Below, one piece after another: positions 25,785 through 48,718 of a DNA stretch of 64,000 nt. The position numbers were made by a program, and so were the translations under genes. The stretch is from positions 868,001 through 932,000 of the forward strand of contig NZ_CP121471.1 in NCBI RefSeq assembly GCF_033954835.1, written 5' to 3'. The DNA comes from Thiorhodovibrio frisius. Its GTDB lineage: Bacteria; Pseudomonadota; Gammaproteobacteria; Chromatiales; Chromatiaceae. The notes under the pieces are model-generated. The model saw only the letters and a list, made by a program, of their open reading frames with translations. It had not been told where the DNA came from and did no database searches. Each line of letters opens with the position of its first letter. Positions within the stretch are counted from its first letter, which is position 1.

Positions 25785-25952
25785 TAGTGCAATAGTCGGG
25801 AATGCGTTAGGTTAAATCACCAAGCCTTTTCAATGACATCAGTCAAGGACGCGAAACCGCGGCCCGATGGCCGAATGCGCCCGCGAGTCGATTTCCCCGC
25901 TTGGGATATTGGCTCTCTCAGCGGCCGTGATCGCCAGCGCAAGGGGACAGAG

Positions 25953-27101: not shown

Positions 27102-27104
27102 ATC

Positions 27105-30100
27105 GTGACCAACGTTTCGACGGGCGACTTCCAGTTGACGGGCACGGCCTCCGGCACCATCAGCAGCGTTGCGTATGACAGCGCGAGCGGCACCCGGGGG
27201 TCCGTGGCCCTGGTCACCGTCACGAACGTGTCCGGCGATGGGACTCTGCGGCTGGATCTGAAGTCGTCCGGAACGGGTATCCAGGACGCGAGAGGAAATG
27301 CGATCAGCGGCGGCTACACCGGCGGAACCGCCCATACCGTCGATACCGTGGCCCCGCAGGTGCAAAGCATCGTCCGGCAGACCCCCGCCAGTGAACAGAC
27401 CAACGCCGACTCGCTGGTCTTTCGGGTGGCCTTTGACGAGACCGTGCAGGATGTGGCGGCGGCGGACTTCACGGCGACCGGTACCACGGCGACGGTCAGC
27501 GCCGTCAGCACGGTCAATGGGTCCACCTATGATGTCACCGTCAGCGGCGGCGATCTGGCGAACCTGGATGGCGCCGTGGGGCTGAACCTGTCCGGGTCCG
27601 CCGACCTCACCGATACGGCGGGCAACACGATCCAGGCCGGCGAGCCGGGCACGGATCAGACCTATACCCTCGACAACTCACCGCCGGCCGTCCCTTCCGT
27701 GCCCGACCTGGACGCGGCCAGCGACACCGGCGCGGCCGATGACGACGACCATACCAACGACACCACGCCGACCCTGACCGGCACCGCCGAGGCCGGGGTC
27801 ACCGTCACGCTGTACAGCAGCATTTCCGGCAACGTCGGCACGGCGACCGCCAACGGGGGTGGGGCGTGGTCGATCACCGCCAGTGCCCTTGCGGACGGCA
27901 CGCACACCTTCACCACGACGGCCACGGACGCGGTGGGCAACGAGTCGGCGGCCTCGGCCGGTCTGGACGTTGTGGTGGACGGCTCCGGGCCGGTCTTCAC
28001 CTCCAGCGATGCGCCCTCGGTCGTCGAGAACACGACCGACATTCTCACCGTCGGCGCCACCGATGCCACCGGCCCCGTCAACTTTGCCATCACTGGCGGG
28101 GCGAATCAGGAGCTATTTGCGCTGGACGAGACCACGGCGGCCCTGTCCTTCACCGCCGGCCAGACCTATGTGCATGGCGGCGACAATGACCGCGAGGTGG
28201 AGGTCACCGCCACCGACGCCTTCGGCCAGACTACGGCCCAGACCATCACGGTCACCATCACCGACACGCCGAACGAGGCGCCAACCTTCACCGGCCTGGA
28301 CGGCACGCCGACGTTCACCGAAGGCGGGTCCGCCGTCATCCTGGACGGCGACGTCACCATCAGCGACACGGAGCTGGATGCCCGCAACGCCGGCGCCGGC
28401 TACGCGGGCGCCAGCCTGACCATCGCACGCAGCGGCGGCGCCAACACGGACGACGTATTCTCGATCCAGACCGGCGGCAGGCTGACCGTCGCCGGCAATG
28501 ACATCAGCAGCGGCAACGTCTTCGCCACCCTCGACACCACCACGACCGCCGGGCAAGTCACCGTTTCGTTCACGGACGCCAACGGCACCACGCCCACAAC
28601 GGCGCTGGTCAACGAGGTCATGCAGGCGATCCGCTACGAAAACGCCAGCGGCGATCCGCCGGCCAGCGTGGACCTCGCCTGGACCTTTGCCGACGGCAAC
28701 AGCGGCCCCGGCGACCAGGGCGCGGGCGACGCACCGGGCACCGGAAGCGGGGCCGTGACGGTGACCATCTCCTCCGTCAACCAGGCGCCCACCCTGAGCG
28801 CGACCGAGGATAATCCCACCTTTACCGAGGGCGGGGGCGGCGCCAGCCTGTTCAGCAGCGCCAACGCGGATGCGGGGGAGCCCGGGGACAGCTTCGCCGG
28901 ACTGACCCTGACGGTCAGCAACGTCACCGACGGCGCTGCCGAGATCCTGTCCATCGACGGGACCGACGTGGCCCTGACCGACGCCAACAGCGTGGCCGTG
29001 GCCGGCGGCACGGCGGCGGTCAGCCTGTCGGGCACCACGGCGACGGTGACGATCACGGGCATGGGTCTCTCCCCGACCGCGTTCAAGACCCTGGTGAACG
29101 GCCTTGCCTACCGCAACACCAGCGATGACCCGACCACCGCTTCGGATCGCGTCGTGACCATCACCGCCGTTCAGGACAGCGGCGGTACGGCCAATGGCGG
29201 CGCGGATTCAACGACCACCGCCATCGCCTCGACCGTCAGCCTGACACCGGTCAACGACCCGCCGGAGGTGGGCAGCGTGTTCGGTGAGACCGCGACCCTG
29301 GTCGCGGGGGGCGGCGCGCAAAACGTGGCGCTGCTCGACGATGCCACCGTCAGTAACCCGGACTCCGCCGATTACGACGGGGGCAGCCTGACCGTCGTTC
29401 AGAACATCGGCACCGCGAATGGGTCGTGGGGGCTGGACGGCACAACCGCGACATCGGATGGCAATGGCACCGTCGCCGCCGGCGAGACCATCGCAGTCGA
29501 CGGTGTGTCCATTGGCACGGTGCATGCCACCGATGACGGGCAAGGCGGCAATACCCTCCAGGTTTCCTTCACCGCCGGGGCGACGTCCGCGAACATCCAG
29601 ACGCTGCTTCAGGCGCTGACCTACGACGCGCCAGCAACAGGGGGGGCGGGTGACTGGCTGGGGGATCAGGTCTTCAGCCTGACCCTGAATGATGGCGACG
29701 GCACCGCGAACGGCGGCGATCAGGATGCCGCCGGCCCCTTCACGATCACCGTCACCCAGAATCCGCCGGTCATCGACAACCTGAACGGCGATACCACGAC
29801 GGCGGACAAGGGCGCCACCGTTGCGTTCGACCTGAATAGCGATGCCACCGTCACAGACGCCGACAGCTATGATTTCGACGATGGCGCCCTGACCCTCTCC
29901 CGCACGTCCAGCCTGGCGGGCGATTTCTCGCTGGATACGAGCAAGGCGACCTCGGGCGCAGATGGCGTGATTGAAGCCTCTGATTCCATCAAGGTGGAGG
30001 TGAGCGGCGTCTCCGTCGCCATCGGTGTGGTGAACACCGGCGCGGACGGCCAGGGCACCAATGGCCTGACCATTGACCTGAATGGCAATGCCACTCCGGT

Positions 30101-32333
30101 GCATGTGGCGACGCTGTTGCAAGCCCTGCAGTACACCTCTTCCGACGGCGGCGCACACAGATTCGACGTGACCCTGAGTGACGGCGCATTGTTGGGCGGG
30201 GCGACCTCAGCCGTCTCCACGGTTACGATCACTGTCCAGGACGAACCCGTGAACACCGTGCCCGGCGCCCAAATCGCCGTGGACGGCACCGCCAAGGCGA
30301 TCACCGGCGTTTCCGTCGCCGATGCCGACAGCGCCACCCTGACCACCACGGTTTCGGTCAATCCCGGCGACGGCACCCTGACCGCGTCGGGCGGCGGCAC
30401 CATCACCGGGGCCGGCACCGAAAGTCTTCAGATCCAGGGCTCGGTCGCCCAGGTCAACACCGCGCTGGCGACCCTGAGCTACACCCCGGCCGTCAACAGC
30501 ACCGGCGTGAAGATCCTCACGGTCGAGACCACCGACGGTACCTATACCGACACCGATACCATTGACGTGACGGTATCCGACCGGCCGAGCATCGCCAACC
30601 TGAACGGTGACCGTCAGACCCTGACGGCGGTTGCGACGCTGCCGCTCGATCTGGGCGGCGATGCCGCCGTGACCGATGCCGATTCCACCGATTTCGACGG
30701 CGGAACCCTGACCATCGCGCGCGCGGGCACCGCGGCGGCCGGCGCCTTCAGCCTGGACGGCACCACCGCCAAGGCGGGCGGCGACGGGGCACTGGCCAAC
30801 ACCGAGATCGTTTCGGTGGGCGGCACGGACATCGGCACCGTCTCCAGCGCCGGGCAGGGCACCAATGATCTGGTCATCGACCTGACCGCCAGTGCGAAGC
30901 CGGCCCTGGTCGGCACGCTGGTGCAGAATATCCTGTTCACGCCCGACAGCGTGACCACCCACAGCTTCGACGTCACCCTCAGCGACGGCGACGGCACGAC
31001 ATCGGATGCCGCCCGGGTTACCTTCGCGCCGCCCGCGCCCACTGGCGGTGGTGGTGGCGGAGGCACCCCCTCAGGTCGCGATGAAACGCCAGACAAGCCC
31101 GCGGACGAGACCATGGATGAGAGTGGCAGCCGCCTCATCACCCTGGAGCCAGGCGATAGTTCGTCAGAGCACATCCTTACCGGCAGCGACGCCACGCCGG
31201 TTGTTGCGGCCGGGTTGCCGGCCGGGGTCGGGTTGATCTGCTCCAGCTCGCCCGCGCCTCAGGCCCCATCCAGCGCCATCACCGACTTGAGTGCGCGCAT
31301 TGCGAACAGCGGCGCACAGGGACAGGATGACATGGCCAAGACCGGTCAGGCATTTTTGAGCAGCCTGCCCGATGACGCGCGCGTTTGCGTCAGCGCCGTC
31401 ACCCTCGCGCTTGAGGGCGAAACAGCGCCCGGCGCGCCCATCGTGATCTCCGATGCCGTGCCGGGCGACGGCATCACCGAGGCCATGGTTATCGACGTCT
31501 CCGGGCTGCCGCCCGGGACCGAGCTGCGGCTTGACGGCATCGATTTCGCCGTCATCATTGGCAGCGCCACCGTCACGGGCGGCGAGGGGGCCAACATTGT
31601 TGTGGGCGATGGCGGCAGCCAAAGCATCGTGCTCGGGCCGGACGACGACATCCTCGACGGCGGCGCCGGCGACGACCAAGTCGGCTCCGAGGGCGGCGAC
31701 GACATCCTGATCGGTGGCCTGGGCAACGACACCATCACCGGCGGCAGCGGCATCGACACCGCCGAATACGCCGGCGCCAGCACCGACGCGCTCATCCGCC
31801 GCGACGCGAGTGTCACCGTCACCGATGCCGGCGGCACCGACAGCATTGGCGAGGATGTCGAGCTGCTTGCTTTCGTTGAGAACCGCGCCGTCACCCTGGT
31901 GCGCCCCGAAGGCAATGCAATTGCCGCGGGCGTGGGATTCGACCCCGAGTTCTACCTTGCCCAGAACCCCGACGTTGCCGCCGCCGTCGCGATCGGCCAA
32001 TTTGCCAATGGCGCCGAGCACTTCGCGCAATTCGGTCTGCTCGAGGGACGCCCCGGCAATGCTCTGTTTGACAACGACGCCTATCTGGCGATGAACCCCG
32101 ACGTTGCCGCAGCGGTCGCCTCAGGGATGTTTGCCAGCGCCGAGCAGCATTATGCCCTCTATGGCGCGGGCGAAGGGCGCGACCCCTCCGGCTGGTTCGA
32201 CGCCTCGGCCTACCTCGAGGCCAACCCCGACGTTGCCGCCGCCGGCATGCCCGCCCTGGAGCATTTCATCGCCTGGGGCGCGGCCGAGGGACGCATGGGC
32301 TTTGTGCTCGACGACGCGCTGCTGGTGGCCTGA
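27105..32333 (+). CDS. Giant surface protein (2), C-terminal part after the amber codon
   Basis: In frame with the preceding part; the GTG at 27105 has no ribosome site, so independent translation is unlikely. It holds many Ig/cadherin-like repeats (e.g. AFDETVQDVAAADFTATGTT, DTPNEAPTFTGLDGTPTFTE, VNQAPTLSATEDNPTFTEGG), a Gly-rich hinge near residue 1318 of this part, RTX-type nonapeptides (GGAGDDQVGSEGGDD, GGLGNDTITGGSGID; nt about 31650-31760) and, at the C-terminus, three FDxxxYLxxNPDVAAAV repeats. It is likely a type I secreted, calcium-binding adhesin. The last residues are VLDDALLVA. Confidence 0.8.
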   Translation: MTNVSTGDFQLTGTASGTISSVAYDSASGTRGSVALVTVTNVSGDGTLRLDLKSSGTGIQDARGNAISGGYTGGTAHTVDTVAPQVQSIVRQTPASEQTNADSLVFRVAFDETVQDVAAADFTATGTTATVSAVSTVNGSTYDVTVSGGDLANLDGAVGLNLSGSADLTDTAGNTIQAGEPGTDQTYTLDNSPPAVPSVPDLDAASDTGAADDDDHTNDTTPTLTGTAEAGVTVTLYSSISGNVGTATANGGGAWSITASALADGTHTFTTTATDAVGNESAASAGLDVVVDGSGPVFTSSDAPSVVENTTDILTVGATDATGPVNFAITGGANQELFALDETTAALSFTAGQTYVHGGDNDREVEVTATDAFGQTTAQTITVTITDTPNEAPTFTGLDGTPTFTEGGSAVILDGDVTISDTELDARNAGAGYAGASLTIARSGGANTDDVFSIQTGGRLTVAGNDISSGNVFATLDTTTTAGQVTVSFTDANGTTPTTALVNEVMQAIRYENASGDPPASVDLAWTFADGNSGPGDQGAGDAPGTGSGAVTVTISSVNQAPTLSATEDNPTFTEGGGGASLFSSANADAGEPGDSFAGLTLTVSNVTDGAAEILSIDGTDVALTDANSVAVAGGTAAVSLSGTTATVTITGMGLSPTAFKTLVNGLAYRNTSDDPTTASDRVVTITAVQDSGGTANGGADSTTTAIASTVSLTPVNDPPEVGSVFGETATLVAGGGAQNVALLDDATVSNPDSADYDGGSLTVVQNIGTANGSWGLDGTTATSDGNGTVAAGETIAVDGVSIGTVHATDDGQGGNTLQVSFTAGATSANIQTLLQALTYDAPATGGAGDWLGDQVFSLTLNDGDGTANGGDQDAAGPFTITVTQNPPVIDNLNGDTTTADKGATVAFDLNSDATVTDADSYDFDDGALTLSRTSSLAGDFSLDTSKATSGADGVIEASDSIKVEVSGVSVAIGVVNTGADGQGTNGLTIDLNGNATPVHVATLLQALQYTSSDGGAHRFDVTLSDGALLGGATSAVSTVTITVQDEPVNTVPGAQIAVDGTAKAITGVSVADADSATLTTTVSVNPGDGTLTASGGGTITGAGTESLQIQGSVAQVNTALATLSYTPAVNSTGVKILTVETTDGTYTDTDTIDVTVSDRPSIANLNGDRQTLTAVATLPLDLGGDAAVTDADSTDFDGGTLTIARAGTAAAGAFSLDGTTAKAGGDGALANTEIVSVGGTDIGTVSSAGQGTNDLVIDLTASAKPALVGTLVQNILFTPDSVTTHSFDVTLSDGDGTTSDAARVTFAPPAPTGGGGGGGTPSGRDETPDKPADETMDESGSRLITLEPGDSSSEHILTGSDATPVVAAGLPAGVGLICSSSPAPQAPSSAITDLSARIANSGAQGQDDMAKTGQAFLSSLPDDARVCVSAVTLALEGETAPGAPIVISDAVPGDGITEAMVIDVSGLPPGTELRLDGIDFAVIIGSATVTGGEGANIVVGDGGSQSIVLGPDDDILDGGAGDDQVGSEGGDDILIGGLGNDTITGGSGIDTAEYAGASTDALIRRDASVTVTDAGGTDSIGEDVELLAFVENRAVTLVRPEGNAIAAGVGFDPEFYLAQNPDVAAAVAIGQFANGAEHFAQFGLLEGRPGNALFDNDAYLAMNPDVAAAVASGMFASAEQHYALYGAGEGRDPSGWFDASAYLEANPDVAAAGMPALEHFIAWGAAEGRMGFVLDDALLVA

Positions 32334-33895: not shown

Positions 33896-35695
33896 ATGCA
33901 CTTTCCCTATGGTCTGAGCGATTTTGGCAAAGTGCGCGAGCAAGGATATTGGTATCTTGATCGCACGGATCGAATTCCCGTACTGGAAGCCGCCGGCGAT
34001 CAACTGATTTTCCTGCGCCCGCGCCGCTTCGGCAAAAGCCTGCTGCTGTCGATGCTGGAGCACTATTACGACCTGAACCGCGCCGAGCAGTTCGAGGCAC
34101 TGTTCGGCCCGCTCGCCATCGGGCAGCACCCGACAGCACGGCACAATCAATACTTCGTGCTCAAATGGGATTTCTCGCTGGTCGCCGCGCATGGTGAGAT
34201 CGGCGCTATCGAAGCAGCGCTGCATCAGCATATCAACGACAGAATCTATCAATGCATCGATGACTACCAATCGCACTGGAAAGGTGCGATCTCATTGCAT
34301 CCGCACAATGCGCTCTCGTCGTTCGAGTCTCTGTTAGGCGCGGTGCGGAGAACCCCCCACAAGCTCTACCTGCTGATTGACGAATACGACAACTTCGCCA
34401 ATGAAGTGCTGATGGCCGCGCATCCGGGCGGGCAGGATCGCTACCAGACCCTGCTCCAAGGCGAAGGCTTGATGAAAACCGTGTTCAAGTCAGTCAAGGC
34501 CGCCGCTGGCGGTATGGGGCTGGATCGGGTGTTCATCACCGGCGTCTCGCCGGTGGTCTTGAGCGACATGACCAGCGGCTACAACGTCGGCAAGGATCTG
34601 TTCCTGCTCCCCCAGTTCAACGACCTGTGCGGCTTTACCGAGGGGGAAGTTGCAGCCGTGCTGAACCAGCTCACCCAAGAAGGTGGCGACTGGTCGGCAG
34701 ACAAGGCGCTGGCGACCATGCGAACCTTCTACAACGGTTATCGCTTTAGCGAGGAGGCCGGGGAAAGTCTCTACAACCCCACCCTAAGCCTGTACTTTTT
34801 CGACGCGCTGGCCACCCAGGGCAAATATCCCCGGCAGATGCTCGATGAAAACCTGGCCATGGATCGGAACAAGCTGATCTATATCGCCTCAATGCCCCAT
34901 GGCGAGGACCTGTTGATCGAGGCGCTGAGCGGCGATGACCGAGTGCTGGTGCCGGAACTGGTGCAACGCTTTGGCGTGGCCGATGTGCTGGCGGCGGTGA
35001 AGGATCAGCCGTTCATGGCGTCGCTGCTGTATTTCTTTGGCATCCTGACCCTGGCGGGCGAAGGCGAACTGGCCAAACTGATCCTGCGCATTCCCAACCT
35101 GGTCGCGCGCGGGCTTTATGTGGAACGCTTGCGCGAGCGCTGGCTGCCGGCGACGGATGTGCGTGCCGCTAGCCGCGCAGCGGCCGAGCGGCTGTATCTG
35201 GAAGCCGACCTGACCCCGCTGTGCGCGCTGATCGAACAGAGCTATTTCGCCGTGCTGTCCAACCGCGACTACCGCTGGACCAACGAGCTGATGGTGAAAT
35301 TCGCCTTCCTGACGCTCTTGTTCGACGACCGCCTCTACATGGCCGTCTCCGAGCTGGAGACCGAGCGCGGTTATGCCGATCTGGCCCTGATCGTCCGCCC
35401 GGACATGCGGCGTTTCCAGGCGCTCGACCTGCTGCTGGAATTCAAATATCTCAGCCTGAAGGAACTCGGCCTGAGCGGCGAGCAGGTGCAGCAGGAATCG
35501 CGCGACGCAATGGCCCAACGGCCGGCGGTGGCCGCCAAGCTCGACGAGGCCGAAGCCCAAGCGCGCGACTATGGCGGCACCCTGACCCGGCGCCATGGCC
35601 TGACCGACCTGCGCGCTTTCGCCGTGGTCGCCCTGGGGGTCGAGCGACTGGTCTGGCGGCGGCTGCCCGGCACGGCGGCGAAGATCACCAGCTAG
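33896..35695 (+). CDS. AAA-ATPase-like / PD-(D/E)XK nuclease family protein, copy 1
   Basis: A 599-residue protein of the AAA-ATPase_like (PF09820) plus PDDEXK_9 (PF08011) type, widely duplicated in bacteria and of unknown role. Walker A-like RPRRFGKSLLLSMLEHYYDL (about 41-60) and Walker B LYLLIDEYDNF (about 158-168) are clear. A nuclease-type D...ExK core lies in YADLALIV...DLLLEFKYLS near 490-520. It is nearly identical to the gene at 46916 except in residues about 103-160, where the two differ heavily without any length change. The C-terminal ten residues also differ. Confidence 0.9.
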   Translation: MHFPYGLSDFGKVREQGYWYLDRTDRIPVLEAAGDQLIFLRPRRFGKSLLLSMLEHYYDLNRAEQFEALFGPLAIGQHPTARHNQYFVLKWDFSLVAAHGEIGAIEAALHQHINDRIYQCIDDYQSHWKGAISLHPHNALSSFESLLGAVRRTPHKLYLLIDEYDNFANEVLMAAHPGGQDRYQTLLQGEGLMKTVFKSVKAAAGGMGLDRVFITGVSPVVLSDMTSGYNVGKDLFLLPQFNDLCGFTEGEVAAVLNQLTQEGGDWSADKALATMRTFYNGYRFSEEAGESLYNPTLSLYFFDALATQGKYPRQMLDENLAMDRNKLIYIASMPHGEDLLIEALSGDDRVLVPELVQRFGVADVLAAVKDQPFMASLLYFFGILTLAGEGELAKLILRIPNLVARGLYVERLRERWLPATDVRAASRAAAERLYLEADLTPLCALIEQSYFAVLSNRDYRWTNELMVKFAFLTLLFDDRLYMAVSELETERGYADLALIVRPDMRRFQALDLLLEFKYLSLKELGLSGEQVQQESRDAMAQRPAVAAKLDEAEAQARDYGGTLTRRHGLTDLRAFAVVALGVERLVWRRLPGTAAKITS

Positions 35696-36290: not shown

Positions 36291-38162
36291 ATGGACCTTT
36301 ACCGCAGGATTTCATACCACCCGTCCCGCCTCGCGTTGCTGGGGATGATCTGGGTCATTCTGCTCCTGCTCGGCGGTTGCGCCACCAACGCAACCGATAG
36401 CTCCCCGCGTCCAGATCGGGGCGTGCTCGATTTGCGTGGCTGGACTCCGCACAATGGGCCGATCACACTCAGGGGCGAGTGGGCCTTTCACTGGCGGACC
36501 TTCCTGCCCCCTAATGAGGCGCGCCAGTCAGTTCCGGATCGCTATGTCTCGGTTCCCTCCACTTGGAACCATTATCAGATGGCCGGTGAAAACCTGCCTG
36601 GGCACGGCTATGCCAGCTATCGTCTACAGATTCTGACCGATCTACCTGTCGGGACCCTGCTGGCCTTGCAAGTGCACAGTTTCTCGAGTGCCTATCGGCT
36701 GTTTGTTGATGACCTGCTGGTAGCCGCCAATGGCACCCCTGGGACTAGCGTCGAGGAGGAGCAGGGGCAGTATCGTCCCCTGGTGGCCGTCTTCAGTGTG
36801 CCAGACGCCAGGTTCGAGCTGTTGATCCAGGTGTCTAACCATCATTATGCCCGTGGCGGATTCTGGGCTGACATCTTTCTTGGCGATGCCAACACCCTGA
36901 TTGATCAGGTACTCAGCCGCTCTTTGCAGGAAGCCGCCCTGTTCGGCGCTTTGCTGGTGATCGGGTTTTTCTATGCGGCGGTCTACTTTCTGCTCCGCCG
37001 GCATCGCTATCTCCTCACCTTTGCGCTTTTCTGTCTGATCCTGATTGTTATTCTGGACATGGCGCACCTGTTGCTGCTGACTCGCTTGGCTCCGGCAATC
37101 AGTATTGAGCAGATCGCCTTTCTTCATTATTCCAGTACAGCCTGGGGTGGCTTCCTGCTGTTGCTCTATACCCATCAGCTGTTTTCCACCGCACTTTCCG
37201 CTGTGCTTGTGCGGATCTGGCTGGCGATCAATTTGGTCGCCCAAAGTGCTTATCTGTTGCTGCCGATGTCAAGCTATTCCGCCTTTGGTCCGCTGAGCAA
37301 CCTGCTGGACATCAGCGTCCTCGTCTGCACCCTGCTGGTTTGCCTGCTCGCTGTCCGCGCGCGAAAACAGGGGGGGCTGATTCACCTGACCAGCCTGCTG
37401 GTGCTGGTCATCATTAATCTGCATGATGTCCTGTATCTGACCAATGCCATCAGTAGTATTGCCGGCAGTTCCCTGCATCTGGGTGTCTTTGTTTTTCTGC
37501 TGTTGCAGTTAATTCTCCAGGCCCAGCGCATCTCCCTGCTTAACGAACAGAATCAAGCCAACGAAATGGCCTTTTTACGCGCGCAGATTAATCCCCATTT
37601 TCTTTACAACACCTTGAATACCGTCATCTCTTTGTCGCGGCGCGACATGGAAAAAGCCCGCCAGCTGCTGTACCAATTTAGCGAATTTCTGCGCCAGAGT
37701 TTTGATTTCAAGAATCTCAATCAACACACTAGCCTTGACGAAGAATTGGCAATGGTCGAGCTCTTTGTTTCCATCCAGCGGGAACGCTTCGGTGAGCGGG
37801 TTCAGGTCAAGTACCAGCTCCCGGGGATCACAACCTACCAGGTGCCGGCCAACGTCCTGCAGCCGATTGTAGAAAATGCCATCAATCACGGGATTTTGCC
37901 CCGCAGAGAAGGGGGGATTGTCGCTGTCAGCGTCGAAGCAACCCGGCAAGAACTCCATTTTGTTGTCAGTGATGATGGCATCGGCATGGACCCAGTCGCC
38001 ACCCTGGGCCGGCAGGGTGACCAACGCCAGGGGATCGGCCTGAATAATATTAACCGCCGCCTGCTGCATCTCTATGGCCGGGGGTTGGAGATTACCAGCA
38101 CCCCCGACCAGGGCACCCGAGTGCGATGGTCCATCCCTCTGGTCACCGCGGCCGCAGAGTAA
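36291..38162 (+). CDS. LytS-like sensor histidine kinase with 7TMR-DISM N-terminus
   Basis: A 623-residue membrane kinase. The N-terminus has a lipoprotein-like LLLLGGC (lipobox near residue 29). A periplasmic 7TMR-DISM-type jelly-roll domain follows (about 45-205, GRGVLDLRGW-like start and FVDDLLVAANG), then seven predicted TM helices (about 215-405). The His_kinase domain (PF06580) carries INPHFLYNTLNTVISL and the ATPase domain carries VENAINHGI, DDGIGMD and GIGLNNINRRL. It is 250 bases upstream of a response regulator on the same strand, its evident partner. The sensed ligand is unknown. Confidence 0.9.
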   Translation: MDLYRRISYHPSRLALLGMIWVILLLLGGCATNATDSSPRPDRGVLDLRGWTPHNGPITLRGEWAFHWRTFLPPNEARQSVPDRYVSVPSTWNHYQMAGENLPGHGYASYRLQILTDLPVGTLLALQVHSFSSAYRLFVDDLLVAANGTPGTSVEEEQGQYRPLVAVFSVPDARFELLIQVSNHHYARGGFWADIFLGDANTLIDQVLSRSLQEAALFGALLVIGFFYAAVYFLLRRHRYLLTFALFCLILIVILDMAHLLLLTRLAPAISIEQIAFLHYSSTAWGGFLLLLYTHQLFSTALSAVLVRIWLAINLVAQSAYLLLPMSSYSAFGPLSNLLDISVLVCTLLVCLLAVRARKQGGLIHLTSLLVLVIINLHDVLYLTNAISSIAGSSLHLGVFVFLLLQLILQAQRISLLNEQNQANEMAFLRAQINPHFLYNTLNTVISLSRRDMEKARQLLYQFSEFLRQSFDFKNLNQHTSLDEELAMVELFVSIQRERFGERVQVKYQLPGITTYQVPANVLQPIVENAINHGILPRREGGIVAVSVEATRQELHFVVSDDGIGMDPVATLGRQGDQRQGIGLNNINRRLLHLYGRGLEITSTPDQGTRVRWSIPLVTAAAE

Positions 38163-38413
38163 GTCCACCGACAGCTGAAGTCCGCTTGGTCTGTCTGAAC
38201 CTCTGCGCGGATTGGTGTTTTGCAACAGATTGCGCCCGCGGGAACCCAAAGGCTCGCGGCATGGCCGTGAGATTTTCGCGAGATCGGTCTGCTAGCCTAG
38301 GCTTCACACAGCTCGCTGCTCCAGGTGAATCCAGCACTGACGATAAAGCCTGCGTCTCGCAGGCATTCAGCCGCACGCAATGGCTGTGAGACCTCGGAAT
38401 AGAGATCGCACTG

Positions 38414-39514
38414 ATGCCCATGACCGCCGTGTTGATAGACGATGAACAGCCGGCCCTTGATGAACTACAAGAATTGCTGAGGGCGCACGCCGCTGACCTG
38501 CAAGTGGTCGGCTGTTATCGCTACCCCGAGGATCTGCTGGCGCAGGCCGCAAGGCTGCGTCCCGACGTGGCCTTTGTTGATGTCGCCATGCCGGGCATGG
38601 ATGGGCTGACACTGGCTAGGCAGCTGCAACAGCAACTGCCCAAGATTGCCATTGTGTTTGTCACCGCCCATGCCGGTTACGCGGTCAAAGCCTTTGATTG
38701 CGCAGCCGAGGATTATCTGCTCAAGCCGCTGCAACCCCGGCGGCTCGCCACAACCGTGGAACGACTGCGAGCGCGGATCGATCAAGGTCCCCGCCAATCC
38801 CACATCCGCATCACCACCTTCGGCGGCCTGCGGGTCCAGACGCCAAAGGGCCCGCTGACATGGCACTCCAGCAAAACCCGTGAGCTCTTCGCTTGGCTGC
38901 TGCATCACCACGGCAACCCGATCAACCGCGAGCAACTGCTCGACGCCCTCCATCCCGATGTGTCCTTCTCTCGCGCTGAAAGCCGCTTCCACAACGACAG
39001 CTACCACATCCGCAAAAGTCTCGAGAGCGGGGCCGTCGGCGAGAGCATCCGGCTGACGAAACTTGGTCTGGAATTGTCCGCTGATGTCTTCTGGGACAAG
39101 GCGCATTTTGGCCATCTGTTGTCACTGGCGGCCAGACAGCAAGATCCACTCCCCTCTCTGGAGCAAGCGATCGACCTCTACCAAGGTGATTACCTGGCCG
39201 ATGCGCCGTGGCCCTGGGCTGATCCGTTTCGCGAACGCTTGCGGTTGCAGTATCAGGCCGCGCTGCTCAGTGCCGCGACCGAACATCGGCGGCGAGGGCA
39301 ACTCGAGCGGGCCGAAATCCTGCTGCTTACCGCCAGGGAGCAGGATCCGTTCAACGAGCAGACGGTGATCCACTTGGTCGAGCTTTACCTTCAGGACAAT
39401 CGCCTGCCCCATGCCCTGAGCCTCTACCACGGTTATGCGCAGTTGCTGGTGGATGAACTGCAAGCGGAACCAGGCAGTAAGTTGCGCGCGTTAATCGCCG
39501 CCGCAAACCGCTAA
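38414..39514 (+). CDS. Response regulator with winged-helix/BTAD (SARP-like) output
   Basis: A 366-residue transcriptional regulator. An N-terminal receiver domain (1-120) has the acidic pocket DDEQP, phospho-acceptor Asp56 in VAFVDVAMPG, and K in EDYLLKPLQP. A winged-helix DNA-binding domain follows (about 135-215, TFGGLRVQTPKGPLTWHSSK), then a bacterial transcriptional activation (BTAD/TPR) domain (about 225-360, GDYLADAPWPWADPFRERLR). LytS-like kinases usually pair with LytTR regulators, so the SARP-type output is unusual. It may control the giant protein gene downstream, but this is inference from position. Confidence 0.87.
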   Translation: MPMTAVLIDDEQPALDELQELLRAHAADLQVVGCYRYPEDLLAQAARLRPDVAFVDVAMPGMDGLTLARQLQQQLPKIAIVFVTAHAGYAVKAFDCAAEDYLLKPLQPRRLATTVERLRARIDQGPRQSHIRITTFGGLRVQTPKGPLTWHSSKTRELFAWLLHHHGNPINREQLLDALHPDVSFSRAESRFHNDSYHIRKSLESGAVGESIRLTKLGLELSADVFWDKAHFGHLLSLAARQQDPLPSLEQAIDLYQGDYLADAPWPWADPFRERLRLQYQAALLSAATEHRRRGQLERAEILLLTAREQDPFNEQTVIHLVELYLQDNRLPHALSLYHGYAQLLVDELQAEPGSKLRALIAAANR

Positions 39515-39780: not shown

Positions 39781-42700
39781 ATGGCCTCAGCAACCCACCA
39801 AATCGCCGTTATCGACCGCAGCGTCAGCGACTATCAAGCCCTGGCAACCGTCGCCGAGCAGGCCGGGCTGGAGGTGATTCTGCTCTCTGGTCAGGGAGAT
39901 GGCGTCGCCGAACTCGCCGCCGCGCTGCAAGGGAGCAGTGGTATTGAAGCGCTGCATCTTATCTCCCACGGCAGCGCCGGGCAGATCCAGCTTGGCAGTG
40001 CTCATCTGAATAACGAATCCCTGAGCGAATATTCCGCAACCCTCGCGCAAATTGGCCAGAGCTTGACCGCTGAGGGCGATCTGCTGCTTTACGGCTGCAA
40101 TGTGACCGAAGATGACAGCGGTCGCGCCTTTATCGACGAGTTGGCGCAGATCACCGGGGCGGATGTGGCGGCATCGGATGATGTGACCGGGTCAGCGGCG
40201 ATGGGTGGCGACTGGGTGCTGGAAGCGGCGATTGGCGATATTGAATCGCCGGTGCTCGCTACGGCGGGATTTAACGGCCCATTGGGTGACCCTAACGCTT
40301 CCCCCACCATCGCCATTAATCAGGCGCTGAACTTTAATGGGGCGGATGACAAGATCGATTTGGGTGCGCCCTTGTTGCCAACAAGCGGCAGTTCACACGC
40401 CATGACTCTCATGGCCTGGATGAAACCTGATAATGTTAGTAAGGATGAACAATGGTTCATCAGTCAATATGATGGTGTTTCTGACAAAAGGTTTATATGG
40501 GGAATCTTTGATAATAAACTCTGTTATTTTACGCCAGGTAATACAATCCTTTCTAATACAACTCTTACTAGCGGGGAATGGTGCCATGTTGCTGTTGTTA
40601 AAGAATCAGACGGTACCATCACCCACTATCTGAATGGTGTTGCCGATGGAGGCGGCACAAATACATCGGCTTTCGTCGATGTGCATACCTATATCGGTGG
40701 CAGCGGATATCCTCATCCCTCTATTAGTGCCTTTGGCAACTTTGACGGGGCTCTCGACGAAGTCAGTATCTGGAACACAGCTCTCGATGCCACGGCAATC
40801 CAGGCCACCATGAACACCTCTCTGGCCGGCGATGAAACCGGCTTGGTCGCCTACTACAGCTTTGATCAGGATTTTGGCACTGCGCTCAGCGATGACAGCG
40901 ACAGCAATCCTGCCTACAACGGCACCCTGATAGATTTTGGTACGCCCGTAACCGCGACCGGTCCACTCCAGCAAGTTGTCACGGAAGACGAGGCCGGTAA
41001 CCTGCAGTTCTCGGGAACTCCTTTCGCCGATGCGGATGGCAATACTCTGACGGTGACCCTGAGCGTGGGCGAAGGGAGTATTGCAGCCTCCTCTGCTGGT
41101 GGTGTCACGGTCGATGACACCAACTCCGCAGCGGTCACCTTTACAGGCAGTGTGGATAATCTCAACACCTTTTTTACCACTGCCGGCAATATCACCTACA
41201 CCTCTGCTGCAGAGCCCAGCGCCAACAGTCAAACCCTGACCATCAGCGCGTCCGACGGCAACGGCGGCAGTGATTCCGCCACGCAAGACATCATCATTCG
41301 GCACAATATCAACGAAGCGCCGGTGTTCTCCTCTGAGGCCACATTTACCGTCGATGAAAATACCGCGGAAGTCGGCACGGTATTGGCGGCGGATAACAAG
41401 ACCAATAGCGCACTGAATCTCGCCGCAACGAACGATTTTGCGGCGGTTTCAGGGATTGATTTTAGCTCCGATTCGGTGACCATCGAGGGGTGGTTCTCGT
41501 TTAATGATCTGACAGGTCAGCAAAATTTGCTCCGTTTAGGAAGTGATAGCAATACCTATCTCAGGATTGTTCCGGAAAAATTAGAAGACAACAAAATTGC
41601 GTTTTTTATCAGTGATGGTGCGAATAATAATAATGATGGTGCAGTGGTTTTGGTTAGCGGTGTCAGCGTTGTTGCCAACGAATTCTATCATCTTGCATTC
41701 GTCTACGATAATAACGGTGACTCAGCAACAGCTTCCATCCACGTTAATGGCCAACAGGTAGCGACGCAAGGGTTAACTGAGAAGATTGCTTTCAGTGCAG
41801 ATTCTTACCAAATGATTCTGGCAACTGAAAACAATGACCAATTCAACGCCAACGTGAAAATCAATGATTTTCGTATTTGGAATGCCGCCAGAACCGAAGC
41901 AGAAATTCAAAACAACATGAACACCGAGCTGGTCGGCAATGAAGCTGGCCTGGTCGCCTACTACAAAATGGATGAGACCAGCGGCGCGACGCTTGCGGAC
42001 AGTGCCAATGATTACAATTTAGCGGTTACCTCTGGAACTGAGACCGATCTTGATGCGACTCAAAGCGGCGACATCATGGAGTACAGCATCGTCGAAACAG
42101 GTGCAGATTGGGATAAGTTCACTATCGATAGTAGCAGCGGTGATCTGAGTCTCAAAACCCCCGCTGACGTTGAAACCCAAGACACCTACAGTTTAACCGT
42201 CCGCGCCACCGACAGCGCATCAGGGCTTTCTACCGACCAAAGCGTTACGGTGAATGTGACTGATGTGGAGGAAGCACCGGTAATCAGCGGCACCCCGACC
42301 GATGTCGAAGCGGAAGAGGATGCCATCACCAACCTGTTGTTCAGCGGCACCCCCTTTGCCGATGGAGATAACGATCCGCTGACCGTGACCCTGTCGGTGA
42401 CCGAAGGAACTATTGATGCACCAGGAGATGCCGATGGTGATGGCATAACGGTCGGTGGCACCGCAACAGACAGAACCTTTGCCGGGTCTGTCGCCGACCT
42501 GAACACTTTCTTTACCACCGAGGGCAAGATTACCTACACCTCGGCCGAGAATCCGACAACGGACAGCCAAACCCTGACCATCAGCGCCAACGACGGCAAC
42601 ACCACCACCCAGACGACTGAAACCATCAACATCCAGCGCCATATTAACGAAGCACCGGTATTCAGCTCCAACGGCACCTTCACTATAGATGAAAATACCA

Positions 42701-45700
42701 CCGCCGTCGGCGATGTCTCGGCCGAAGATCTAAAGACCAACAGCGCGCTCAATTTTGACGGTACGGATGATTATGTCGATATCGACGCTAATGTGCACCG
42801 CGGCAACCAAAATGTCATCACCATCGAGGCATGGATCAAAACCGCGGGCAGCACGGGGATCATTCCAAACATCGTCAGCTCATCTACGCTTAACAATGGC
42901 GACGGCACAGCAGATAATTTCCAATTCAGAATACGTGAAAATAAACTTGAAGTCGGTATGGACACCGGGGGGTGGGAGGGTGTTACCGGTGCCACCTTAG
43001 TGAATGACGACGAGTGGCATCACGTCGCCATCGTAAAAAGTGGCTCTGCTGTGACCCTGTATGTTGATGGGGTGGAAGACGGTAGCGGAACAATCAATCA
43101 GACCGCAACGCCGACCCATTTCTACATTGGCGCTTACTACGAAAACAACCAGATCAATGCTGACAGCTACTTCAAAGGCCAGATAAACGATGTCCGTATC
43201 TGGAATACCGCTAGAAATGCGGCTGAACTCAACGACAACAGGAACACCGAACTGGTTGGTGATGAAGCCGGCCTGGTGGGGTACTACAAATTTGATGAAA
43301 CCGGCGGCACGGCTGTTGCCGACAGTTCTACTTCCGGCAATAATGGCACCCTCAACAATACGACCAATGACACAACCGTTCAGAACGGCGATAGGATGGA
43401 GTACAGCATCGTTAGTGGTGACGATGGCGGTAGCTTCACCATTGATGTCAGTACCGGGGCGCTGAGCCTGAACGCCCCCGCAGATTATGAGACCAAAGAC
43501 AACTACAGTTTAACCGTCCGCGCCACCGACCGCGCATCAGGGCTTTCTACCGACCAAAGCGTTACGGTGAATGTCACGGACCAGGAAGGAGCGACCATCA
43601 CCGCCGTCACGTCATCGACTGCCGATGGCAGCTACAAAGCCGGCGATGAGATCAGCATTCAGGTGACCTTCAGCGAAACGGTCACGGTCGATACCAACGG
43701 CGGCACCCCGCAACTCACGCTGGAAACCGGCGCCACCGATCACGCGGCCACCTACGCCAGCGGCTCCGGCACCAACACCCTGACCTTCACCTACACCGTG
43801 CTGGCGGGCGATACCAGCAGCGATCTCGACTACGCCGGCACCACCGCCCTGGTGTCGAACGGCGGCACCATTACCGCCAACAACGAATCCGCCATACTGA
43901 CCCTGCCCGCGCCCGGCGCGGCCAACTCGCTGGGGGCCAACAAGGCGCTGGTGATCGATACCACCGCACCGACCCTCAGCAGCAGCACCCCGGCGGATGA
44001 CGCCACCGAGGTGGCGGTCGGTGCCGACCTGGTGCTGACCTTCAGCGAGGCCGTGAGCGCCGTCACCGGCAAGAACCTGGTCATTCACAAGGCCAGCGGC
44101 GACAGCGTGGTCGCCACCCTCGCGGCGGACGACACCACGCAGATCACGATTGCCGGTGGCGTGGTTACGGTCAACCCGAGCGCCGACCTCGCTCCCGACA
44201 CCGACTACTACGTGCTGATCGACAGCGGTGCCTTTGCGGACGCGGCGAACAACCCCTACGCAGGCCTCGCCGACACGACCGCGCTCAACTTCACCACCGC
44301 TGCGGCGGCGGACACCACAGCCCCGAGCTTCCAGTCGGCGGCCACCAGCAACGACGGCACCAAAGTCATTCTCACCTACGGCGAGGCACTCGATGCCAGC
44401 AATGCGCCCGAGGCCAGCGCCTCCACCGTCACGGTTGCCGGTAGTCCGGCCACCATCGACAGCGTTGCAGTCAACGGCAGCACCGTCGAGTTGACCCTGC
44501 AAACCGCCATCACCCACGGGCAATCGGTCACGGTCGCTTACAGCGATCCCACGGGCGGAGACGACACCCACGCCATTCAAGATAGTGCTGGCAACGATGC
44601 CGCCGATCTGTCGGCCACTGCGGTCACCAATACTGTTGCAGACAGCAACGATGCTCCCGAAATTACCTCTAACGGCGGCGGCGAAACAGCGGCGGTCAAT
44701 GTCGCCGAAAACAGCACCGCCGTGACCACGGTGACCGCCACCGATGCCGACGGCGATACCCTAACCTACAGCCTCAGTGGCGGGGCGGATGAGGATCTGT
44801 TCCAGATCAACGCCAACAGCGGCGCGCTCCGCTTCACCAACGCGCCGAACTTCGAGAGTCCGCAAGACCAGGGCGACACCGCCGGCAACAACACCTACGT
44901 GGTCGAGGTCCAGGCCGACGACGGCAACGGCGGCACCGACACCCAGACCATCACTGTGACCGTTACCGATGTTAATGAGAACACCGGCGGTGGCGGTGGC
45001 GGGACACCCGCGCCGCAGCCAGCACCTGTGCCCGCACCAGAACCGCAACCTGAGCCGGAACCGCAACCTGAGCCGGAACCCGAGCCAGAGCCAGAACCCG
45101 AGCCGGAACCCGAGCCGGAACCCGAGCCGGAACCCGCCCCCACGCTTCCGCCAAAGGAGGCTTGGAGCGACCTGCCCAACGGCGATGGAGATGAGATTCC
45201 CGACCAGATCGAGGCATTTGCGCCGCCCCTGGAAGAAGGAGGCAAGCTGGGCGACGGGAATGGCGATGGTATCCCTGACAATGCACAAGACGATGTGGCT
45301 TCGGTACCCATTCTCGACACCGACGAGGTCTCCAAGAACCCCGGCGCACCGATGATCTTTGCCACCTTGGTCGGTGGCGGCGCGGCTTACGACGGTGAGG
45401 GCGACGGTGGCAGCGAGCCATCGCCACCCGCCGGAGGCGTCGTGATTCAGGCAGTCACCCAGAAAGACGCCCCGCCTGTCGACGATCAAGCCGGCATTAC
45501 CATGCCACTGGGCTTGATCGGCTTTGAAGCCACGGCTGAAATCCCCCAGGGCGAGCAGACTGCCGGCGAAGTATCCTTTAGCCTGCTGATTGAAAAAGAC
45601 CCCGACATTCCGGATGACGAGCAGATCAACGGATTCTGGAAAAAGGACAGCGCCGGCGCCTGGGTCAATCTCGCCAGTGCCGAGTATGGCGGGCAAGTCA

Positions 45701-45999
45701 CGCAGGTTGGCAACAAAATTCGCCTCGACTTCATCATCGAGGACAATGGCCCCTTCGATACCAATCTTACCCCCGGCGCCATCACCGACCCCGGCGCACC
45801 CGGTTATCTTGCGCTCAAAGCCCCGTCCCCAGTTACAGAACCGCCAATTCTCCAGCCGCCGGTCGTGGAACCCCCGGTCGCGGAACCCCCGTCCCCAGGC
45901 TTTCCCACTCCAGCATTCCCGGAACCAGCGCCAGAACTGATCCGCCCGTTTGACCTGACCGGCGCCTCCCACTTCTTCGATTGGATGTTACTGGGATAA
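39781..45999 (+). CDS. Giant DUF4347/LamG/cadherin-like surface protein (3)
   Basis: A 2072-residue acidic protein, start preceded by AAAAAGGAGCC. Domain order: DUF4347 (about 8-165; His63-Gly64 in LISHGSAG and Cys106 in LLYGCN); LamG-like 1 (about 183-400); a cadherin/Ig-like repeat; LamG-like 2 (about 540-755) and LamG-like 3 (about 984-1200), each nested inside a cadherin-like repeat; a Big/SbsA-type Ig repeat ([20 protein letters not shown]); a SwmB-type repeat ([20 protein letters not shown]); a last cadherin-like repeat; a poly(Pro-Glu) linker (about 1750-1786); and a choice-of-anchor-U-like C-terminal domain. There is no Sec signal. It is probably an adhesin or cell-surface carbohydrate binder. 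Confidence 0.87.
45012..45143 (+). repeat. Low-complexity Pro-Glu coding repeat
   Basis: Tandem CC(C/G)GAGCC(G/A)GAA codons encode an extended (PE)n stretch, flanked by Pro/Ala/Gln. Such linkers are stiff, extended spacers before wall- or membrane-proximal domains. The hexamer repeats are prone to slippage, so the length may vary between strains. Confidence 0.85.
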
Positions 46000-46066
46000 A
46001 TCGGTTGCATGGCAAACCGTGGCGACTCGAGTAAACGATTGGCAAATGACGAAAAGGAACAAAACG

Positions 46067-46765
46067 ATGGTCAAAAAACGACGGATCAACTGGGTGAGCT
46101 GTGTTTTGCCGCTGGGACTACTGGCATGCGCCTTCAACGCACCCGCGCAAACCTATCTTACCGTGGAGGGAGGAAAGGCCTTCGCCGACCTCAATCTCGG
46201 CGACTTCAAGGCATTCAATGCAAGCATCGCCGCCGGCGGTGGGCAAGCGCGCCTCAAGCACAGCGATCCCGACACCGCGTTTGTGCTTGGTATTGGCTAT
46301 CAGTTTCATCCCAACTGGGGCATGGAGCTGCTCTATTTGGACATGGGCAAGGCATCCGCGCGCTCGATCAGCTCGGATCGCGTGGGCACCTTCACGCGCA
46401 ATCGGACCATTACCGAGAGCATCGAGCAAGACGCCCTCGCGGCGAACCTAGTCGGGAGTGTGCGGATAAAAGACAGCCTTGTTCTCAAGGCCAGTCTCGG
46501 AGTAGGGCATGTGTGGCAGAAATCGCACGGCCAAGCGACAGGGCAAACCTTCAACAGCTTGGGCCAAACCGTGGTGAGCGAGGCCGAAAGCCGATCACGC
46601 TCCAGCACCCAATGGGCGCCGGTGATGGGTTTGGGCGCTGGATATCAAATCAACGAAGATTGGCAGATCAACCTGAACTGGCGGCGTTTCGCCGATCTAA
46701 AACCGGATATGCTGGGGCGGATGGATATCGATCTGTTCACAGTCGGCGTGCAATATCATTTTTGA
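46067..46765 (+). CDS. Outer-membrane beta-barrel protein (OmpW/OmpA-like)
   Basis: A 232-residue protein with a signal peptide ending APAQ and C-terminal Phe (TVGVQYHF), the signature recognised by BAM. Alternating hydrophobic strands such as YLTVEGGKAFADLNL, TAFVLGIGYQFHPNWGMELL and GLGAGYQINEDWQINLNWRR indicate an 8-stranded barrel. The ATG at 46067 is preceded by AAGGAA with a 7-base spacer; in-frame ATGs at 46019 and 46046 are less likely. It lies 67 bases after the giant protein gene and could be its accessory. Confidence 0.85.
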   Translation: MVKKRRINWVSCVLPLGLLACAFNAPAQTYLTVEGGKAFADLNLGDFKAFNASIAAGGGQARLKHSDPDTAFVLGIGYQFHPNWGMELLYLDMGKASARSISSDRVGTFTRNRTITESIEQDALAANLVGSVRIKDSLVLKASLGVGHVWQKSHGQATGQTFNSLGQTVVSEAESRSRSSTQWAPVMGLGAGYQINEDWQINLNWRRFADLKPDMLGRMDIDLFTVGVQYHF

Positions 46766-46915
46766 AAACCAAACGGGCCAGGCTCGAATTGATTTCCAGC
46801 CCAAGCCTTCAAACCAAACGGGGCAAATTAAAGGGGCCGACAAGGGGCGCGCCGAGAAGGACGCTGCGACCGTGCTATGCTTGAACTCCGGTCTCGCCCC
46901 AGGAGTTGAGCGCCC
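46766..46915 (+). repeat. CCAAACGGGCCA repeats and shared 5' flank of AAA/nuclease gene 2
   Basis: Begins right after the barrel-protein stop with CCAAACGGGCCAGGCTCGAATTG, the motif also found at 24769-24800, then CCAAACGGGGCAAATTAAAGG and the same GGGGCGCGCCGAGAAGGACG flank seen at 33830. The junction suggests insertion of the nuclease gene as a unit. Confidence 0.75.
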
Positions 46916-48718
46916 ATGCACTTTCCCTATGGTCTGAGCGATTTTGGCAAATTGCGCGAGCAAGGATATTGGTATCTTGATCGCACGGATCGAATTCCCG
47001 TACTGGAAGCCGCCGGCGATCAACTGATTTTCCTGCGCCCGCGCCGCTTCGGCAAAAGCCTGCTGCTGTCGATGCTGGAGCACTATTACGACCTGAACCG
47101 CGCCGAGCAGTTCGAGGCACTGTTCGGCCCGCTCGCCATCGGGCAGCACCCGACAGCACGGCACAATCAATACTTCGTGCTCAAATGGGATTTCTCGCTG
47201 GTCGCCGCGCATGGTGAGATCGGCGATATTGAAGCGGCGCTGCATCGCCACATCAACGGGCGCATTCGTGCCTTCGCCCGGCGCTATCGCGAGCAACTGC
47301 CGGAAGTGCTTCAGATTCATCCCGAGGACGCGCTCACTTCTTGGGAAACGCTGTTGAGTGTCATTTCCCAGACCCCGCACAAACTCTACCTGCTGATCGA
47401 CGAATACGACAACTTCGCCAACGAGGTACTGATGGCCACGAATCCGAGCGGGCAGGATCGTTACCAAACGCTACTCCAGGGCGAGGGCTTGATGAAAACC
47501 GTGTTCAAGTCGGTCAAGGCCGCCGCTGGCGGTATGGGGCTGGATCGGGTGTTCATCACCGGCGTCTCGCCGGTGGTCTTGAGCGACATGACCAGCGGCT
47601 ACAACGTCGGCGAGGATATCTTCCTGAGGCCCCAGTTCAACGACCTGTGCGGTTTTACCGAGGGCGAAGTGGCCGCCGTGCTGAACCAACTGGCCCAAGA
47701 AGGCGGCGACTGGTCAGCGGACAAGGCGCTGGCGACCATGCGCACTTTCTACAACGGCTATCGTTTCAGCGAGGAGGCCGAGGAAAGTCTCTACAACCCG
47801 ACCTTAAGCCTGTACTTTTTCAAAGCACTGGCTACCCAAGGCCAATACCCCAGGCGCCTGCTCGATGACAACCTGGCTATGGATCGCAACAAGCTGAGTT
47901 ATATCGCCTTACTACCCCATGGCGAGGAGCTGTTGATCGAAGCCCTGCGTGGCGATGACCGGGTGCTGGTGCCAGAGCTGGTGCAGCGCTTTGGCGTCGC
48001 CGATGTGCTGGCGGCGGTGAAGGATCAGCCGTTTATGGCGTCCTTGCTGTATTTCTTTGGCATCCTGACCCTGGCGGGCGAAGGCGAACTGGCCAAACTG
48101 ATCCTGCGCATTCCCAACCTGGTCGCGCGCGGGCTTTATGTGGAACGCTTGCGCGAGCGCTGGCTGCCGGCGACGGATGTGCGTGCCGCTAGCCGCGCAG
48201 CGGCTGAGCGGCTGTATCTCGAAGCCGACCTGACCCCGCTGTGCGCGCTGATCGAACAGAGCTATTTCGCCGTGCTGTCCAACCGCGACTACCGCTGGAC
48301 CAATGAGCTCCTGGTGAAATTCGCCTTCCTGACGCTCTTGTTCGACGACCGCCTCTACATGGCCGTCTCCGAGCTGGAGACCGAGCGCGGCTATGCCGAT
48401 CTGGCCCTGATCGTGCGCCCGGACATGCGGCGCTTCCAGGCACTTGATCTGCTGCTGGAATTCAAATATCTGAGTCTGAAGAAACTGGGCCTGAGCGGCG
48501 AGCAGGTGCGGCAGGAATCCCGCGACGCACTGGCCAAACGGCCGGCGGTGGCCGCCAAGCTCGACGAGGCCGAAGCCCAGGCGCGCGATTATGGCGGCAC
48601 CCTGACCCGGCGCCATGGCCTGACCGACCTGCGCGCCTTTGCCGTGGTCGCCCTAGGGGTGGAGCGCTTGGTCTGGCGCGTGGTTGGCGGGCAAGACGCT
48701 GGCGATGAGAAAAGGTGA
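46916..48718 (+). CDS. AAA-ATPase-like / PD-(D/E)XK nuclease family protein, copy 2
   Basis: A 600-residue paralogue of the gene at 33896 (offset exactly 13020 bases over most of its length). Walker A (RPRRFGKSLLLSML), Walker B (LYLLIDEYDNF) and D...ExK (DLLLEFKYLSL) are conserved. The first ~100 residues differ by one residue (K/V to K/L at position 13). Residues about 103-160 are different (HRHINGRIRAFARRYREQLP instead of HQHINDRIYQCIDDYQSHWK), and mismatches then fade by about residue 370. The end (VVGGQDAGDEKR) differs too. Confidence 0.9.
   Translation: MHFPYGLSDFGKLREQGYWYLDRTDRIPVLEAAGDQLIFLRPRRFGKSLLLSMLEHYYDLNRAEQFEALFGPLAIGQHPTARHNQYFVLKWDFSLVAAHGEIGDIEAALHRHINGRIRAFARRYREQLPEVLQIHPEDALTSWETLLSVISQTPHKLYLLIDEYDNFANEVLMATNPSGQDRYQTLLQGEGLMKTVFKSVKAAAGGMGLDRVFITGVSPVVLSDMTSGYNVGEDIFLRPQFNDLCGFTEGEVAAVLNQLAQEGGDWSADKALATMRTFYNGYRFSEEAEESLYNPTLSLYFFKALATQGQYPRRLLDDNLAMDRNKLSYIALLPHGEELLIEALRGDDRVLVPELVQRFGVADVLAAVKDQPFMASLLYFFGILTLAGEGELAKLILRIPNLVARGLYVERLRERWLPATDVRAASRAAAERLYLEADLTPLCALIEQSYFAVLSNRDYRWTNELLVKFAFLTLLFDDRLYMAVSELETERGYADLALIVRPDMRRFQALDLLLEFKYLSLKKLGLSGEQVRQESRDALAKRPAVAAKLDEAEAQARDYGGTLTRRHGLTDLRAFAVVALGVERLVWRVVGGQDAGDEKR

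Follow-up and report, generated by a model that had tools for sequence, protein, structure and literature searches.

The window analysed here, a stretch of 64,000 nucleotides of the Thiorhodovibrio frisius genome, carries at 39781–45999 on the forward strand a gene for a protein of 2072 amino acids, defined by its open reading frame and its Pfam matches, and the reading frame is unbroken throughout. Pfam reports DUF4347 (residues 8–160), three Laminin_G_3 domains (combined E 3.9e-60), three Cadherin stretches, Big_5, an SWM repeat and Big_9. From the N-terminus, the order is DUF4347, a LamG domain (LamG0) within an Ig-like domain, two successive blocks of an Ig-like domain followed by a cadherin that is split by a LamG domain, Big_5, the SWM repeat, an intact cadherin and a Pro/Glu-rich stretch. 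All three LamG domains score over the cut-off of Laminin_G_3 (PF13385) and match it at full length (positions 1–150, 2–151 and 3–151 of 151; E 5e-29, 5e-21 and 2e-20). In the genome itself (5.42 Mb, one contig), neither a LamG_3 domain outside this gene nor a further Pfam cadherin was found. The product is probably a large stalk-like protein that is surface-exposed or secreted. No component of type I secretion was recognised in the scanned proteins of the window, and the C-terminal RTX nonapeptide repeats of RTX adhesins of the LapA/FrhA type were not found, the 2072-aa protein giving no HemolysinCabind match at E≤1.

The two interrupted cadherin domains span residues 510–828 and 955–1267, and each is split by one complete LamG. 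All the features that follow lie on the forward strand. In the first unit, sequence motifs and profile search place the N-half with strands A and B at residues 510–538 (41308–41394); LamG1 occupies residues 539–764 in the B-C loop (41395–42072; PF13385, own-profile match 540–765), and the C-half with strands C to G follows at residues 765–828 (42073–42264; PF00028 positions 32–93). An uninterrupted Ig-like domain, recognised by its alignment with residues 396–509, lies between the units (residues 829–954, 42265–42642). The second unit consists of the N-half (residues 955–983, 42643–42729; Cadherin_4 positions 2–40, with model strands in pLDDT blocks of 92–96), LamG2 in the B-C loop (residues 984–1204, 42730–43392; PF13385 E 5e-29 and a fold match of the model) and the C-half (residues 1205–1267, 43393–43581; PF00028 positions 30–93 and five model strands). 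An earlier note on this DNA had located the feature at 41390–43500; its limits are slightly wider, at 41308–43581. The heptapeptide KTNSALN, which that note had read at both entry points, is present in the protein exactly twice, at residues 540 and 985 (window 41398 and 42733), and the cadherin resumes with MEYSIV at residues 766 and 1206 (42076 and 43396). Both units open with INEAPVFSS (510 and 955) and close with QSVTVNVTD. The ALN end of KTNSALN is an ordinary LamG start (LxFDG), and the recurrence of the heptapeptide is not due to chance, because it sits within a pair of 313–319 aa that is 48% identical.

In each cadherin the B-C loop opens with an Asp, and the cut falls directly behind this residue. 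The distance from the strand-B Asp to strand C is 226 and 221 residues in split cadherins 1 and 2, while 34 of 39 intact cadherins from other loci have 4 or 5 residues there, as in ATD-VDGD-TLSYSL from the same-genus genome G001. The C-halves alone match Cadherin (PF00028) from position 30–32 to 93 of 93 (E 3e-12 and 4e-14). Their scores of 47.0 and 53.3 bits, already above the cut-off of 28.8, rise by 2–3 bits in both units, to 49.1 and 55.9, when the N-half is spliced on. Spliced unit 2 also matches Big_9 end to end, with 28.4 bits as against 19.5 for its C-half alone. As queries of 46 aa, the N-halves gave no match or just the start of Cadherin_4; the 29-residue N-half nevertheless carries the A-B strand signature VDENT..VG.V.A.D, and is 72% identical at the amino acid level between the units. 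As the N-terminal part sits upstream of the LamG, the best Pfam Cadherin stretch enters the profile only at position 17. In classical cadherins the B-C loop (DxDGD-type) carries calcium ligands. The DxD motif is not found in this loop here: D538 and D983 are retained, and the rest is replaced by NKTNS or LKTNS and the LamG. The discontinuous cadherin would therefore have a changed calcium site, and the stiffness of the junction may differ. No direct repeats of at least 8 nt, a possible trace of mobile origin, were found at the insertion junctions.

Structure prediction, one of the checks proposed in the earlier note, was run for unit 2. The AlphaFold2 model (residues 945–1275, 49 alignment rows) has a mean pLDDT of 86.8 and a pTM of 0.75. 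Its cadherin strands lie at 22–26 and 31–34, then, beyond the LamG, at 262–268, 275–277, 283–286, 297–306 and 312–322. It can be seen that confident LamG strands stand between two confident cadherin part-sets, 2–3 strands before and 5 after, and that the strand count is that expected of a cadherin. In this model the seven-strand sandwich is not continuous in sequence, the LamG being placed between strands B and C. In a fold search, LamG2 (model residues ~42–255) reached Z 20–24 against a Bacteroides LamG-like protein (4dqa), PAPP-A and pentraxins; cadherin chains are not among the matches listed for unit 2 because LamG fills the list, which is not evidence against a cadherin fold. The alignment given to AlphaFold2 held ten intact cadherins already gapped across the LamG, so that the nesting hypothesis is to some degree built into the model. 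MAFFT did not align mixed cadherin and LamG rows stably: rows were misplaced in several of the mixes, and a correct alignment was reached only where cadherin rows were few. The predicted pairing of N-half with C-half strands is drawn from model confidence and strand order. The two flanking halves were not seen as separate complete domains, the N-half having just 29 residues. Taken together, the profile coverage of the halves, the short loop of intact relatives and the confident model bear out the proposal that a LamG is nested within a cadherin-like unit twice: the nesting is real, with good direct support for unit 2 and support through homology for unit 1.

A third LamG, absent from the earlier note, looks to be nested as well, after strand A of an Ig-like domain. 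The putative strand-A remnant SPTIAI (residues 174–179, 40300–40317, forward strand) was assigned from alignment with strand-A insertions elsewhere and from a two-residue bridge in a model; LamG0 follows at residues 180–395 (40318–40965, forward strand; PF13385 and model), and then the rest of the Ig-like domain, of Big_9/tandem-95 type (residues 396–509, 40966–41307, forward strand), which is 54–56% identical in amino acids to the uninterrupted copy at residues 828–955. In the model of residues 165–515 (mean pLDDT 85.7, pTM 0.79), LamG0 matches solved LamG-like folds with Z up to 23.8. Since the strand-A remnant shows just that two-residue bridge, the proposed nesting of LamG0 rests mainly on the sequence pattern. 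The layout NDAPxxx-[LamG]-EED...LTDVD recurs at many loci in other genomes, as well as in the homologue from the same genus (L072/L111); a LamG after strand A of an Ig-like domain was assigned in L043, L044, L048, L054, L078, L079, L085, L088, L089, L091, L101, same-genus L072 and LamG0 itself. By a crude pattern count, 20 of 101 LamG domains were flagged, some of them falsely. These insertions resemble the split cadherins in their LamG guest, Ig-like host fold and large surface-type proteins, and differ from them in the entry after strand A and in the Big_9/tandem-95-like host. At least two entry points are thus suggested, after strand A and in the B-C loop, and the strand-A pattern would offer a simple means of spotting probable binding heads in large surface proteins of bacteria. 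In L051, L011 and L069 a LamG is followed immediately by a final Ig strand (DTDTVAITVNSVNDNP), which suggests that LamGs may also enter Ig-like domains at a third point, between strands F and G.

The two repeated blocks were compared codon by codon. The Ig-like domains are 56% identical in amino acids and 65% in nucleotides, the N-edges of the LamGs 56% in amino acids, and the LamG cores 23% in amino acids and 41% in nucleotides. Identity is 70–71% (76% in nucleotides) over the 42-aa C-edge of the LamGs, 33% in the LamG tail, 64% in the first part of the C-half, and 90% (93% in nucleotides) over the last 30 residues. Where the residue is the same in both copies, the fraction of identical codons is 0.31 in the LamG core, 0.89 in the last 30 codons and 0.5–0.67 elsewhere; codon use predicts 0.41. 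These last 30 codons look recently homogenised, to judge by the alignment: the 3' end of unit 1 (42186–42257, forward strand) pairs with 43503–43574, with exact runs of 28 and 43 nt. The earlier note had the composite duplicated as a block. This is supported for the unit together with its preceding Ig-like domain, and for the flanks and LamG ends, which are related; it is not supported for the LamG cores, in which the codons of shared residues are no more alike than by chance.

Instead of entering once and then being duplicated, the two LamGs may have been inserted independently into the same loop of cadherins already duplicated. The first core half of LamG1 is indeed nearer to LamGs of other genomes than to LamG2 (which ranks 47 of 82), and in a tree of 83 LamG domains the three from this gene do not cluster together in any bootstrap tree (0%). 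This tree is poorly resolved, however, and the identical KTNSALN entry and the C-edges of LamG1 and LamG2, each the other's best match in the pool, argue against separate insertions, which we regard as unlikely. The simplest reading is a mosaic, in which an old duplication of the Ig-like domain with its split cadherin would have been followed by recent conversion of the 3' end and by faster divergence or replacement of the LamG cores. A more speculative version of this, which we consider rather doubtful, is that the composite serves as a diversification cassette. Duplication and local conversion would keep the cadherin frame and both ends of the LamG (the KTNSALN entry and the C-edge) the same, whereas the ligand-facing LamG core would be exchanged for sequence from elsewhere. 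If so, the protein could switch binding partners without disturbing the stalk.

In RTX adhesins, a split Ig domain serves to keep the ligand-binding domain clear of the stalk axis, its site facing outward (PMC10865825, PMC12077191). There, as here, an Ig-like stalk domain is interrupted by a whole binding domain with adjacent ends; the guests are sugar-binding/PA14/CBM-type, RTX-roll or vWFA domains rather than LamG, and in FrhA and the AhLap RTX unit they enter after the host's first strand (12 residues in FrhA), as against the B-C loop of a cadherin here (PMC10865825, PMC12077191). LamG and cadherin are mentioned in neither paper (PMC10865825, PMC12077191). The side-mounted binding head is already known in bacterial adhesins; the combination of cadherin host, LamG guest and B-C loop was met nowhere else among the ~800 genomes sampled. 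The two ends of the LamG jelly-roll adjoin. Both marks of a split domain are found here, since profiles and model indicate an Ig-like domain that is discontinuous in sequence, and the known LamG fold a guest with adjacent termini.

We put at roughly 0.78 the probability that the two cadherin-type extender domains are split domains, each hosting a whole LamG in place of its short B-C loop, with the LamG as a probable sideways ligand-binding head. Such split-domain display of a ligand-binding head is the mechanism we infer as the most likely here. Each cadherin would give up its short B-C loop to house a LamG; because the LamG ends adjoin, the cadherin could close around the insert and the stalk continue, with the LamG projecting sideways. 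The composite and its preceding Ig-like domain would then have been duplicated, after which the LamG cores would have changed by divergence or replacement, with the stalk sequence, above all its 3' end, staying alike. The split-domain idea would thereby extend from RTX adhesins to cadherin-type stalks with LamG heads. The "sugar-binding face" of the earlier note is an assumption, the fold being that of LamG and the binding putative. The start motif FDGxxDYV is kept in LamG2 and lost in LamG1, so that LamG1 may bind a different ligand from LamG2, or none at all. Accordingly, one may ask if the inserts are merely structural spacers or decayed remnants without a ligand, tolerated by the nested fold. 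The lost motif and the low identity of the LamG1 core to that of LamG2 would fit this, while the motif and full domain retained by LamG2, the intact frame and the good scores of LamG1 and LamG2 as LamG do not, and we give it only a small chance.

The composite was also searched elsewhere, the other check proposed in the earlier note, in 55 relatives, 369 genomes of the class and 398 of the phylum (partly overlapping, ~800 in total). The search was limited, often 5–6 candidates being scored per genome and other phyla barely sampled; within it no second B-C-loop composite was found, and whole-length matches were in the gene itself only. A scan of genome contigs for the composite returned tandem intact cadherins only, no match was obtained in viral sequences, and among plasmids there was no record at 80% coverage. 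Candidates in which most of the model was covered (L044, L049, L057, L058, L076, L077, L103 and others) were rejected as composites, being a LamG followed by a separate Ig-like or cadherin domain, or tandem LamGs. An automatic test for cadherin half-profiles flanking every retrieved LamG found none but those of this gene. No description of a LamG inside a cadherin was found in the open-access literature, which may still contain one. With caution, the B-C-loop composite may be called rare. Annotation easily misses inserts of this kind: in a profile search the C-half simply shows up as a normal cadherin that is a little short. It is quite improbable that the LamGs are beads on a string, with the preceding cadherin truncated or a short linker and the C-half folding alone or as a minimal Ig-like domain: although other genomes often have a LamG followed in tandem by a complete Ig domain (L058, L071, L077) and the C-half alone exceeds the Cadherin cut-off, that half begins at profile position 30–32 and so lacks two strands, and the N-half has its A-B signature, its identity between units and its high-pLDDT strands.

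A homologue of 1923 aa occurs in the same-genus genome G001 (L111:1017-6788), with 37% identity to the host protein over residues 6–518 and 57% over 1612–1900. It shares DUF4347, LamG0 in the strand-A position (a DUF4347-LamG0-Ig head), the cadherin stalk and the C-terminal region, and differs in that its cadherins are uninterrupted and it has one LamG only. Since these cadherins are intact, the B-C-loop insertion of the split-domain composite probably arose in the T. frisius lineage, or was lost in the other.

Next to the host gene, 67 bp downstream, lies a gene for an OmpA-like outer-membrane beta-barrel of 232 aa (46067–46765, forward strand; OMP_b-brl E 2.9e-18), with an apparent signal peptide and a C-terminal Phe; an open reading frame in another frame that overlaps it (46009–46884) is probably spurious. 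Just upstream of the host gene, 36291–39514 (forward strand) encodes a 7TMR-DISM histidine kinase and a response regulator with a BTAD domain. Two AAA-ATPase_like (PF09820) genes of 599 and 600 aa (33896–35695 and 46916–48718, forward strand) flank this stretch of kinase, regulator and adhesin. A second DUF4347 gene (25833–32333, forward strand) is broken by an in-frame TAG at 27099–27101, with DUF4347 ahead of the stop and, still in frame, Big_13 and RTX-like repeats beyond it. Two more DUF4347 genes of the same genome (L112, G000:C1:3134000-3147000) have RCC1-type repeats and no LamG or cadherin, so that DUF4347 heads several unrelated repeat architectures in this genome.
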